This document shows positions 15,508 through 19,386 of a stretch of 64,000 bases of DNA, piece after piece. The notes under the pieces are model-generated. The model saw only the letters and a list, made by a program, of their open reading frames with translations, was not told where the DNA came from and ran no database searches. The stretch's first letter is position 1. The number at the start of each line of letters is the position of its first letter. Both the position numbers and the translations under genes were made by a program. The DNA is from Pirellulales bacterium (GTDB lineage: Bacteria > Planctomycetota > Planctomycetia > Pirellulales > Thermoguttaceae): positions 1-64,000 of the forward strand of contig JAFGDS010000142.1 in the NCBI GenBank assembly GCA_016931995.1. Direction: 5' to 3'.

Positions 15508-16515
15508 TCAGTTTAGCGTCTGCTGGAACTGCTGGAGGACGTCGATTTTTTGCTGCAACTGGTCGATCTCCGCCCGCAGGGCGGCCACTTCCGCCGGCGA
15601 GGGCGGCGGCTCGGCCTGGATCTGTCGGGCGAGCTCCTCCTGCACCGCCTCGTAGAGCCGGATGAAGGCCCGAGTCATCCCGTAGGCCAAGCCGTGGATC
15701 CGCCGCTCGGGGTTGCCTTGAATGCGATCCACGACGTCTTCCACCCGCGAGCGAACAAACGCGGGATCCGTCGAGCAGCCATCGCGGCAGCTTCCCCCGC
15801 AGGGCAGATGCAAAACCGGATGAAAATCGGGCGCCCCGTGGTACGGAAAAGTCGCCGAGCCGGCAAACCGCCGCGAGTACGCGATGAACTCATCGTCGCG
15901 GTCCAGCGGGAAGAGATCGGGGCGGAACGGCGCGTAGACGATCGACGCAGCCGCGACCAGGCACGCTTCCTGAAACGCCGGATCGGCCTGGGCCAGCTTG
16001 TAGATCACGGGCATCCGCCGCATGAACGTCGTCCAAATGCCCATCTCGCGGTGCTGCCACTCGCGATCGAGCAGTTCTTCGGTGGCATGCATCTGGTATG
16101 CCCCCAGCCGCGCGAGCATGGGGAATTGGCGCACCAGCGCGGCCGAGCCGTGCCGCCCGCCCCGCGTGGCGTCGAGCACGTCGTCGCGGACCACCGTACC
16201 CAGCGGCAGCGGTCCGCGGACCACCGGCTGCGCGAGCGCCGAGTCGTCGATCGCCAGCGGCGACATACCCCCGCCGTTCATCGTGGCTTCGCTCGGCCAC
16301 CAGCATCCGGGCCGCGTCGCGCCGCTGCGGGGATGGCGCCCGGCCCAGGCGGAATGCCGCGCCACCGACCAGTCGCGAACCCTCCACGCGGCGACCGCGC
16401 CGACGTTGATCATCAACGCCATCACGAAAAGCAGCACCGGCAGGCACAGCACCATCTCGAGCGTCGCGAGGCCGCGGTGACGGCACTTGCCCCGAAGGGG
16501 CTTCGTAACTCCCAT
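15508..16515 (-). CDS. TadE-like pseudopilin with large C-terminal domain
   Basis: 335 residues from the ATG at 16515. The N-terminus GKCRHRG-LATLEMVLCLPVLL is a class of pseudopilin leader: a basic stretch, Gly at -1 and Glu at +5 before the hydrophobic helix. The TadE helix continues as VMALMINVGAVAAW. The rest is a soluble domain with a Cys cluster (PCGGSCRDGCS) and a C-terminal heptad region (LRAEIDQLQQKIDVLQQFQQ) that should form a coiled coil. A much longer upstream frame exists, but it reads through palindromic repeats and antisense of the next gene, so it is rejected. The protein is probably processed by the locus prepilin peptidase and acts in pilus initiation. Confidence 0.78.
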   Translation of the reverse strand: MGVTKPLRGKCRHRGLATLEMVLCLPVLLFVMALMINVGAVAAWRVRDWSVARHSAWAGRHPRSGATRPGCWWPSEATMNGGGMSPLAIDDSALAQPVVRGPLPLGTVVRDDVLDATRGGRHGSAALVRQFPMLARLGAYQMHATEELLDREWQHREMGIWTTFMRRMPVIYKLAQADPAFQEACLVAAASIVYAPFRPDLFPLDRDDEFIAYSRRFAGSATFPYHGAPDFHPVLHLPCGGSCRDGCSTDPAFVRSRVEDVVDRIQGNPERRIHGLAYGMTRAFIRLYEAVQEELARQIQAEPPPSPAEVAALRAEIDQLQQKIDVLQQFQQTLN

Positions 16516-16520
16516 CGCCG

Positions 16521-16745
16521 AGTGCCACTGGCTATGCCAGTGCCGAGCGGAGAGTGAAACTGGGGAGGAATGGCGGACGACAACCTCCGTGTTGGACCGA
16601 TCGCGCACTGGCGGAGCCAGTGGCACTCGGGCTACAATTCTCGGCTCGACGGGAGCCTCGCCCTCCCGGCGCCAATGGCCGATGACACGCGCAGCACTGG
16701 CAGAGCCAGTGGCACTCGGGCTGGCAGAGCCAGTGGCGCTCGGGC
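16521..16745. repeat. Cluster of GTGCCACTGGC palindromes between TadE- and TadG-like genes
   Basis: At least four arms of the GTGCCACTGGC family lie in about 225 bases: near 16521 (AGTGCCACTGGCTATGCCAG), 16606 (CACTGGCGGAGCCAGTGGCA), 16694 (CACTGGCAGAGCCAGTGGCA) and 16720 (GGCAGAGCCAGTGGCGC). The last two are almost tandem. There is no gene in this gap. Confidence 0.8.
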
Positions 16746-16775: not shown

Positions 16776-18410
16776 TCAATGCGGACTGATTCGTTGGATG
16801 TCTTCGACGGTCATCCCGCCCAGGCTCGGCGGGCGATGGGCCGCGTCGGGCGGGGTTTGAAGGATGGCCGGCAGCGTGACCAGCGTGGCGGGCACGAGCT
16901 GCGCGGTCCAATTCTGGTTGAGCAGGTTCCATTGCTCCGAGATGCCCGGTCCCCAGGCAATGATCCAGTGGCCCGGCTCGGTCGGTTCCTCGTCGCCTGG
17001 GTCCGAGCCGTCTTCCGGCGGCGGCATGGGGATTTCGTGCCCGCCCATGTCGCCAAACGGCGGCGCCGCGGGCTCGGCCCAGTGCCACACGAGCCGCCGC
17101 GCGGGAATGAACAAGCGCGCCTGGGCGTAGGCCACGGCGTCGCCGTCGATCGGATCGCGGAACAACCCCGGCAGAATCTCGGGCGTCTTGGGCCAATATA
17201 CCACCGCCACGAACGAAAACGCCTCGTCCAGATGGGCGTTGCCGTCGTGCACCTCGGCCTGCTCCGTGCGGATGACGTGCGGTAGGTTCGTCGTGGGGTA
17301 CTCCACCTCGAGCAGATGCTCCAACTGCGCGCAGGTGAAGTGGCGCCACAGCCGGCCGAACTGGCCCATCTTCGCCTCGCGATCGAAGAAGAGCAGCGCG
17401 CGGTAGTTCCACTCGTCCAGGTGGCGTCGGCTCTGGTCTCGGCGCTCATCCCGCGCGCGGTCGAAAAATTGAGCCTGGTTGGCGACGTAGTCCATCACCG
17501 GGTCAATGACCGGCAGCGTCCGGGCCAAGGCGTCGCTTTCGTTTCCCACGGGCACGGCGGCGCCGCGCCACAGGACGCCGAGCATCGGCCCGCGGCTGGG
17601 GGCGGGACCCGTGTGCCGCGCGGCCACCTCGGCCGTGGCCGCCTGAGCCATGTCGGGAATCGCCGCCACGAGCGTCCGCTGGAACTCGGGAATCATTCGC
17701 TGCTGGAGGATCTCCTCCATCACCGGCAGGACCAGCTCGCTGGTGGCCGCGGCCCAGTCGCTCCAACGGCGCGCCAGTTCGGCCTCGCGGGGCGCTTTGG
17801 CCGCAATGGCCGGGCCGAGCCGCTGGAACTTCTCGATCGGGGCCCCCGCGAACTTCGGCGCCTCCGCCGCCCAAGCGTCGAGGATCTCCGGCACGTAGGC
17901 CCCGGCGTTGCGGTCGCGGGCCTCGCGCATGAAGGCCGTCATGGCGAACACGTCGAACAGAAGGTGGTTGGTGAAGGCCAGGCCGTTCATTCCCCGGGCG
18001 ACCATCACGCCGCCGCTTTGGGCCGCGGCATCGGCGGCGTTCTGCATGCGGATCTTGTCGTCCACGTGCCTGCCCGCGTTCATCACCATGCCCAGCAGCA
18101 TGGCCAGGAACAACACCGCGAAGACCGACAGGATGCTGATCGTGCCCCGCTGGTCGGCGTGAAGGCGTCGTGTACTCGCAAGAGCGTGAAGGCAGGTTCT
18201 TGAGAATCCTATCCCCTCTCCCTTTGGGAGAGGGTTGGGGTGAGGGTGTGTGCCACTGGCTCCGCCAGTGCGGAACCTACATTCCCCGAGCACTGGCGGA
18301 GCCAGTGGCACACGCGGCGTCGACGTACCCTCACCCCCGACCCCTCTCCCAAAGGGAGAGGGGAGAAGCTCGGTCGCGTTCGATTTGTCCTCAGTACGCG
18401 GTATGCACAT
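16776..18410 (-). CDS. TadG-like pilus-associated protein; N-terminus formed by repeat DNA
   Basis: The recognisable part begins LHADQRG-TISILSVFAVLFL, a leader and membrane helix of the TadG/TadE type. It continues NAGRHVDDKIRMQNAADAAAQ, which is typical of the TadG N-terminal region. A long, partly helical exported domain follows. No ATG, GTG or TTG lies in frame between this leader and the nested repeat at 18213-18364. The only in-frame ATG is at 18410 and overlaps the stop of the upstream gene by 20 bases. The first 71 or so residues (text such as NPLPKGEG) would then be repeat-encoded. Either the start was displaced by repeat insertion, or the gene relies on a GTG inside the repeat. Confidence 0.75.
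   Translation of the reverse strand: MCIPRTEDKSNATELLPSPFGRGVGGEGTSTPRVPLAPPVLGECRFRTGGASGTHPHPNPLPKGEGIGFSRTCLHALASTRRLHADQRGTISILSVFAVLFLAMLLGMVMNAGRHVDDKIRMQNAADAAAQSGGVMVARGMNGLAFTNHLLFDVFAMTAFMREARDRNAGAYVPEILDAWAAEAPKFAGAPIEKFQRLGPAIAAKAPREAELARRWSDWAAATSELVLPVMEEILQQRMIPEFQRTLVAAIPDMAQAATAEVAARHTGPAPSRGPMLGVLWRGAAVPVGNESDALARTLPVIDPVMDYVANQAQFFDRARDERRDQSRRHLDEWNYRALLFFDREAKMGQFGRLWRHFTCAQLEHLLEVEYPTTNLPHVIRTEQAEVHDGNAHLDEAFSFVAVVYWPKTPEILPGLFRDPIDGDAVAYAQARLFIPARRLVWHWAEPAAPPFGDMGGHEIPMPPPEDGSDPGDEEPTEPGHWIIAWGPGISEQWNLLNQNWTAQLVPATLVTLPAILQTPPDAAHRPPSLGGMTVEDIQRISPH
18213..18364. repeat. Nested palindromic repeat: GTGCCACTGGC element inside a CCCTCTCCC element
   Basis: Outer arms CCCCTCTCCCTTTGGGAGAG and CTCCCAAAGGGAGAGGGG enclose TTGGGGTGAGGGTG/TACCCTCACCCC. 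They also enclose a complete inner palindrome at 18250-18311 (GTGCCACTGGCTCCGCCAGT ... ACTGGCGGAGCCAGTGGCAC). It lies at the junction of the two TadE/TadG-like genes and is in frame with the downstream one. Confidence 0.85.
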
Positions 18411-19386
18411 ACGGAATCACCGATCGCTGGCCTTCGTTGCCCAAGGTGATCGAGGCGGATAGGGGATAGGTGTGGACGTCGCCGAGTTGCCGGATGGTCG
18501 CGGCCACGCGGTCGGCTTGGCCGTCGGGCCGCGAGACAACTGAAGCAAGAAACCGGCCCGGGCCGGGCAGCAGGGCCATCTCGTGGCGGACCGTGATGGT
18601 GATCTCGTCCTGCCAGTCCATCTCGGTCGGCAGGAAGTAGGGCGTGCCCGGCGGATGCCATTGATAGAACGTCGACGGCGGCGGCCAGTGCGGCGCGTCG
18701 GAGTTGCGGTGGTAGAACGTCATCCGCACGTCGGTCGCCCGCCGGGCGTAGGTCAGCTTGTTGGCCATGCGCCGCGGGATGCTGTCGATGCCCGCCGACC
18801 CGGGGGCCATCGCGCGGTACGCCCAGCTCATCGTTCCCGCTATCTGTGTTTCACCGCCAACGAGCCCCAGGCCCAGGTCCCGCGAGGGACACGCCGGCGC
18901 CAGCGCCATCAAGGCCGCCGCGCGGATCTTCTCCAGCTTGGGGCTCTCGCCGGAAACGAGAAACGTGAGTCCGCCCTCGGTCGGCTCGTTTGGGTCGGGC
19001 GGGATCTGCCTGGCCGGATCGGTCTCGGGATCGAGCACGTGCGCGCCGGGATCGAGGCCGATGCAGTTCTCCGGCTCCCAATCCAATCGGGCGGGAATCC
19101 ATACGATCGCCGTCCGCGCCGCCGCGAACGCCGCGTAGTGGACCATCACCGTCCCGATCATCACCTGGCTGACCTGGACGATGAACAGGAGAATCATCAC
19201 GAAGAAGGGCAGCACCAGCACGAAGCTCAGGCTCTGCGCGCCGCCCCGCTGGTCGGCGTGCAACCGCGCGAGCCTGGCCCAGCGCGGCCGTCGGTCCACC
19301 AGCCGGGCCAACACGAGCAGGCATACCACGAGCACGACCAACAAGCCGGCCCACGGCAAACAGGCTGTCATCACTGCCCGACCCAT
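18391..19386 (-). CDS. TadE-like pilus protein
   Basis: 331 residues. An N-terminal helix (LLVVLVVCLLVLARLV) comes first, then the leader-like ARLHADQRGG-AQSLSFVLVL with a second helix (PFFVMILLFIVQVSQVMIGT). TadE-type text follows (VHYAAFAAARTAIVWIP). The rest is an exported domain. The same HADQRG motif precedes the membrane helix of the TadG-like protein and of the 68-residue pilin, which suggests one processing signal. The extra N-terminal helix is unusual for TadE. The stop overlaps the ATG at 18410 of the following gene. Confidence 0.78.
   Translation of the reverse strand: MGRAVMTACLPWAGLLVVLVVCLLVLARLVDRRPRWARLARLHADQRGGAQSLSFVLVLPFFVMILLFIVQVSQVMIGTVMVHYAAFAAARTAIVWIPARLDWEPENCIGLDPGAHVLDPETDPARQIPPDPNEPTEGGLTFLVSGESPKLEKIRAAALMALAPACPSRDLGLGLVGGETQIAGTMSWAYRAMAPGSAGIDSIPRRMANKLTYARRATDVRMTFYHRNSDAPHWPPPSTFYQWHPPGTPYFLPTEMDWQDEITITVRHEMALLPGPGRFLASVVSRPDGQADRVAATIRQLGDVHTYPLSASITLGNEGQRSVIPYVHTAY

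Follow-up and report, generated by a model that had tools for sequence, protein, structure and literature searches.

Where does translation of a TadG-like gene begin when a nested palindromic repeat lies between its membrane helix and the nearest upstream ATG? This question is raised by a locus in the window, the whole 64,000-nucleotide stretch of Pirellulales DNA analysed here, for which the original prediction had offered two answers: the repeat either encodes the N-terminus of the protein, or cost the gene its start upon insertion. The genes and protein segments concerned are as follows.

16776–18410, minus strand: TadG-like gene, 544 aa, from the ORF list, with start ATG at 18408–18410
18391–19386, minus strand: TadE-like gene upstream of tadG, 331 aa, overlapping the tadG start with its last 20 nt
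18408–18410, minus strand: overlap start codon ATG of tadG, probably ancestral, with position and frame shared by 22 of the 24 loci whose ATG lies at -11 to -20 relative to the end of the tadE stop
18144–18164, minus strand: LHADQRG, residues 83–89, directly before the membrane helix; the final G is invariant in 18 aligned homologues
18075–18134, minus strand: predicted signal-anchor helix, residues 93–112, from a low-confidence AlphaFold model

The encoded protein is TadG-like by its Tad domain (PF13400), which Pfam places at residues 89–134 (E 4.8e-08, 33.6 bits against a cut-off of 22.3), and PF07811 in the upstream TadE-like gene scores just under its cut-off (E 9.8e-05, 22.8 against 22.9 bits). 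Other neighbours, judged by eye, include Flp-pilin-like and secretion-ATPase-like ORFs, and a Pfam scan of the two pilin-like neighbour ORFs gave no match. The structural model of TadG is weak (mean pLDDT 57.4), and the score of about 30 in the tail is consistent with disorder without proving it. Following LHADQR the sequence reads G-TISILS and has no E at position +5, so it does not conform to GXXXXE[YF], given as the prepilin motif of TadV-processed pseudopilins (PMC10934763). Because the pseudopilin E+5 is missing, the TadG tail is probably kept rather than cleaved.

The palindrome in this tail consists of an inner repeat whose arms are enclosed by those of an outer one.

18212–18249, no strand: outer palindromic repeat, arm 1, 38 nt, 84% complementary to arm 2 by arm comparison
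18327–18364, no strand: outer palindromic repeat, arm 2, pairing with 18212–18249
18248–18271, no strand: inner palindromic repeat, arm 1, 24 nt, 100% complementary to arm 2
18290–18313, no strand: inner palindromic repeat, arm 2, pairing with 18248–18271
18212–18365, minus strand: repeat-encoded part of the tail, about residues 16–67 (LPSPFGRGVGGEG...TGGASGT...PLPKGEG), the TM frame being the only open frame of the linker
18309–18311, minus strand: in-frame GTG within the inner palindrome, a rival start from the codon scan
18291–18293, minus strand: second in-frame GTG within the inner palindrome, likewise a rival start from the codon scan

Both repeats are multicopy. Within the window the inner core has 7 matches (0.02 expected) and the outer core 3 (0.01 expected), and the predicted RNA hairpin reaches -147.1 kcal/mol, with a z of -13.3 against shuffles; these values rule out a chance palindrome. 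Rfam returned only sub-gathering miRNA matches, which we judged spurious. A search of the window's own genome with the palindrome stretch gave 89 match rows from the 40 of 603 first-look candidates that were scored, a figure that may miss copies and often counts both strands of a single place as separate rows. Composites of inner and outer repeat recur elsewhere in that genome. The codon scan agreed with the original prediction on two points. No ATG, GTG or TTG separates the repeat from the leader and helix; between residue 41 and LHADQRG, CTG, ATT and ATC are absent as well, leaving one ATA, at 18212. The sole in-frame ATG upstream of the helix is indeed ATG 18410, beyond the nested palindrome. 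The predicted size needs correction, since the added text was put at about 71 repeat residues: repeat-encoded sequence is present, while the whole tail ahead of LHADQRG measures 82 residues.

To place this start codon among relatives, we searched 119 genomes of the family (E 0.001) and 396 sampled from the order (E 1e-20), which gave TadG homologues in 39 and 46 of them respectively, and used 50 non-redundant loci that include tadE together with the N-terminal part of tadG. We left out exact duplicates, 4 distant loci lacking a usable tadE match and any locus lacking the N-terminus; the 50 are related by descent, so that the counts are not independent. An ATG at -11 to -20 from the end of the tadE stop occurs in 24 of them and is in frame and open into TadG in 22, the exceptions being L045, where the ATG looks accidental, and L058, with another overlap start at -1. 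Different overlapping starts are found in 13 other loci, all outside the window's family or from the named MAG set, and 15 of the 50 have no in-frame overlap ATG. Repeat-free relatives (L013, L014, L017, L018, L021 and L037) start at the same TATG inside tadE. ATG 18410 itself lies in non-repeat DNA within the last codons of the tadE-like gene, and the claim that the repeat provides the tadG start is thereby contradicted; a repeat-encoded tail is the best reading. In place of the proposed either/or, these sequences point to a third option, in which the ancestral overlap start would have been kept and the repeat inserted in frame behind it.

The linkers between the tadE stop and the TadG body vary widely. 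With a cut-off of our own of 90 nt or more for a long linker, the 22 in-frame loci divide into 11 with long linkers (90–241 nt) and 11 with short ones. The TM frame is open in all 11 long linkers, by selection, and the two wrong frames in 3 of 22 cases. Among long linkers lacking an in-frame overlap start it is open throughout in 4 of 11 (Fisher p 0.004 against the in-frame group, a partly circular comparison, the 22 loci having been chosen for being in frame and open). The linkers of all five relatives searched (L010, L011, L012, L022 and L025, of ten non-window long linkers) are multicopy in their own genomes, with 70, 82, 80, 80 and 48 match rows. One repeat type is common to L010, L011 and L044, and its position is identical in L010 and L011, which may represent one old insertion; an 18-nt piece is common to L010 and L022, and the remaining long linkers are mutually dissimilar. 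The clearest case is a pair from one genus, L012 and L037, with the same overlap ATG and the same MFIKRIK start and with linkers of 241 and 13 nt. Their alignment gives L012 a net insert of 228 nt (76 codons) directly after the tadE stop and makes L037 the empty site. For the window's genome the empty site is not directly seen because no same-genus relative was found among those searched. Taken together, the linkers suggest that repeats, largely unrelated to one another, have entered this overlapping pilus-gene junction more than once and in several lineages, apparently independently.

We consider it likely that tadG is translated from the ancestral ATG and that a repeat inserted in frame behind it encodes about 50 residues of cytoplasmic tail. 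Several observations nevertheless count against this reading: two in-frame GTGs could serve instead, starts do move in the TadG family, and a hairpin of -147 kcal/mol about 45 nt inside the gene could impede translation, its great stability speaking against easy translation or for a regulatory role. If the repeat supplied the start, translation would begin at GTG 18311 or GTG 18293 in the inner palindrome, leaving ATG 18410 unused. Both codons are in frame, and in a GspJ-like gene of the same genome an inner repeat holds a GTG whose distance from the prepilin site, 10 codons, is right for a leader. Yet the two GTGs of tadG belong to a hairpin arm that pairs perfectly, ATG 18410 is conserved in position, and loci combining an ATG at -11 to -20 with a linker of at least 90 nt have it in frame and open in 11 of 12 cases. 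We rejected a start within the repeat on the conserved overlap ATG and the open stretch leading from it to the GTGs, and regard it as improbable. Still harder to sustain is the other half of the original alternative, that the insertion removed the real start and left either a pseudogene or a gene read from ATC 18140 or CTG 18131, non-canonical codons close to the helix. The lack of a canonical start between repeat and helix would fit such a loss, but the overlap ATG used by repeat-free relatives is intact here, and past the tail the reading frame is uninterrupted to its end, with 64% identity to the nearest relatives; this option was rejected as very unlikely. Of the two halves, the repeat-encoded N-terminus is thus the one retained.

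A regulatory role of the hairpin, which would be kept between the tadE stop and the TadG body to set the TadE:TadG ratio with the peptide as a by-product, seems doubtful as the main explanation. REPs have been proposed to act post-transcriptionally (PMC3733652), and all 11 in-frame long linkers, most of them unrelated in sequence, fold better than shuffles that preserve base composition only (z -2.1 to -14.2, with 9 of the 11 at -6.1 or lower). Ten of 11 long linkers with no in-frame overlap start gave z values of 0.1 to -3.6 (L062 omitted). A hairpin is not required, however, as 11 of the 22 same-start loci have short linkers, 6 of which were folded and had no hairpin (z 0.9 to -1.6). Regulation and translation from the ancestral ATG can both hold.

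Under translation from the ancestral start, ATG 18410 would be read as it overlaps the tadE stop, probably via translational coupling, and a composite of two REP-like palindromic repeats would have inserted behind that stop, where the repeat begins after about 26 nt. Because the overlap puts the spot favoured by REPs inside the next gene, only frame-preserving insertions would persist. The residues that TadG would gain from the repeat fall in its cytoplasmic tail, ahead of the signal-anchor helix; the insertion is presumably tolerated because this segment is under little sequence constraint. The repeat has thus probably neither supplied nor destroyed the start, and would, once translated, have lengthened the cytoplasmic tail.

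As regards mobility, Y1/RAYT-like transposases may have moved the repeats. The genome has seven Y1_Tnp matches (L066–L072), one with an internal TGA, and these 7 loci have 16 inner-repeat arms nearby, where the window rate, a control drawn from one 64-kb window only, would predict 2.1. Inner repeats occur near four of the seven, on both sides of L066 and L071 and nearby at L068 and L070; none were found near L067, L069 and L072, and outer-repeat matches near the Y1_Tnp genes were at chance level only. The inner repeat alone has the arrangement expected in REP/RAYT systems, a repeat flanking a Y1 (HUH) transposase gene, which suggests RAYT-type mobilisation of the inner repeat.

The same repeats also enter other genes. 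A glycosyltransferase gene of the window's genome (contig C103, L132:657-2303, minus strand) carries both types in frame in its interior, with STGGASGT from the inner and SPPAPLPRAGEGR from the outer repeat between the Glyco_transf_4 and Glycos_transf_1 domains, and TGGASGT and PLPxGEG stand in the same reading frame as in TadG. The insert amounts to about 67 extra residues, whereas in every one of the 15 relatives that have both segments no more than about 33 nt separate them; of 11 fetched loci, the five aligned give a clean empty site (the other 6 were outside the filter). The start-codon ambiguity does not apply to this insert. On the window's contig, outside the window, the GspJ-like gene mentioned above (L155, C46:100400-102000) has a GTG start overlapping the previous stop and inner repeats running up to the prepilin site, and the last possible start before that site, GTG 101800, is itself repeat-encoded. 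It is preceded by a GspI-like gene with an outer-type palindrome in its leader (GspI Pfam match sub-threshold). In genome G033 the repeat family of the TadG tail also lies between the overlapping start and the prepilin site of a GspJ-like gene. A scan of the genome's repeat copies for coding potential was weak, with the correct frame recovered for 150 of 238 calibration pieces; it found 2 of 50 scored places coding-like on both sides in one frame, one with an internal stop, and 2 further places at edges. Stop-to-stop ORFs often span repeats in this G+C-rich DNA and were not taken as evidence alone; among 20 scanned with Pfam, several have the repeat only upstream of the domain, where it may be untranslated.

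Repeats also occur around a second TadE-like gene, downstream of tadG.

15508–16515, minus strand: downstream TadE-like gene, with its ATG after the repeats and therefore a short leader; PF07811 sub-threshold, E 0.0023

This gene carries RGLATLEM, and a second cluster of inner repeats occupies 16518–16743, between it and tadG. The frame is open through the cluster, but ATG 16515 follows, so the repeats are probably untranslated and the gene was discarded as a second clear instance. Separately, in two relatives the TadE-like gene after tadG contains repeat text before its helix: an outer-type repeat in frame (THPHPRPLSQRERG) with no start between in L011 (G027), and NLPSPASGR three times in L044 (G067).

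We tentatively extend these observations to the idea that overlapping pilin-type gene junctions in Pirellulales act as traps for REP-like elements, with repeat-derived leaders recurrently, and perhaps in a regulated manner, supplying new protein sequence to Tad and type II secretion pseudopilin genes; this is possible, though we would not presume it. REPs, which favour the spot just behind a stop, would land in the coding frame wherever that stop overlaps the start of the following gene, an intrusion that a cytoplasmic tail or a cleaved leader would tolerate. How selfish repeats become protein is directly testable at the tadE–tadG junction, because comparison with relatives settles the start codon and repeats, for the most part unrelated, have struck a single junction in several lineages. 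A gene caller that cut such a tail back to a later start codon would err here.

The best-known examples of in-frame palindromic repeats come from Rickettsia. The Rickettsia palindromic elements (RPEs) are described in a review as high-copy palindromic repeats that sit in frame within protein genes and are translated as peptide (PMC10969869). The TadG tail and the glycosyltransferase interior likewise each hold a multicopy palindrome within a coding gene with the frame kept, here known from sequence, whereas phylum and repeats differ from those described for RPEs. Intragenic GTAG/CGTC REPs offer a second parallel: they are reported inside genes, N-termini included, and to favour the 3′ end of the gene upstream, with the caution that many N-terminal cases may really start downstream (PMC3733652). 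The present repeat is similarly placed, inside a gene at its N-terminus and behind the 3′ end of the upstream gene. Such N-terminal cases are often doubtful, but here the stretch from repeat to helix offers no downstream start, and the start codon is fixed by comparison with relatives. The clustering of inner-repeat arms near Y1_Tnp genes resembles REP/RAYT (REPtron) systems, unlike the chance-level distribution of the outer repeat. In the literature outside subscription journals we recognised no precedent in a planctomycete, a TadG or a pseudopilin. What appears new is the repeated, apparently independent insertion at one overlapping pilus-gene junction: unlike in RPEs, mutually dissimilar repeat families seem to have entered the same junction of one gene in different lineages.
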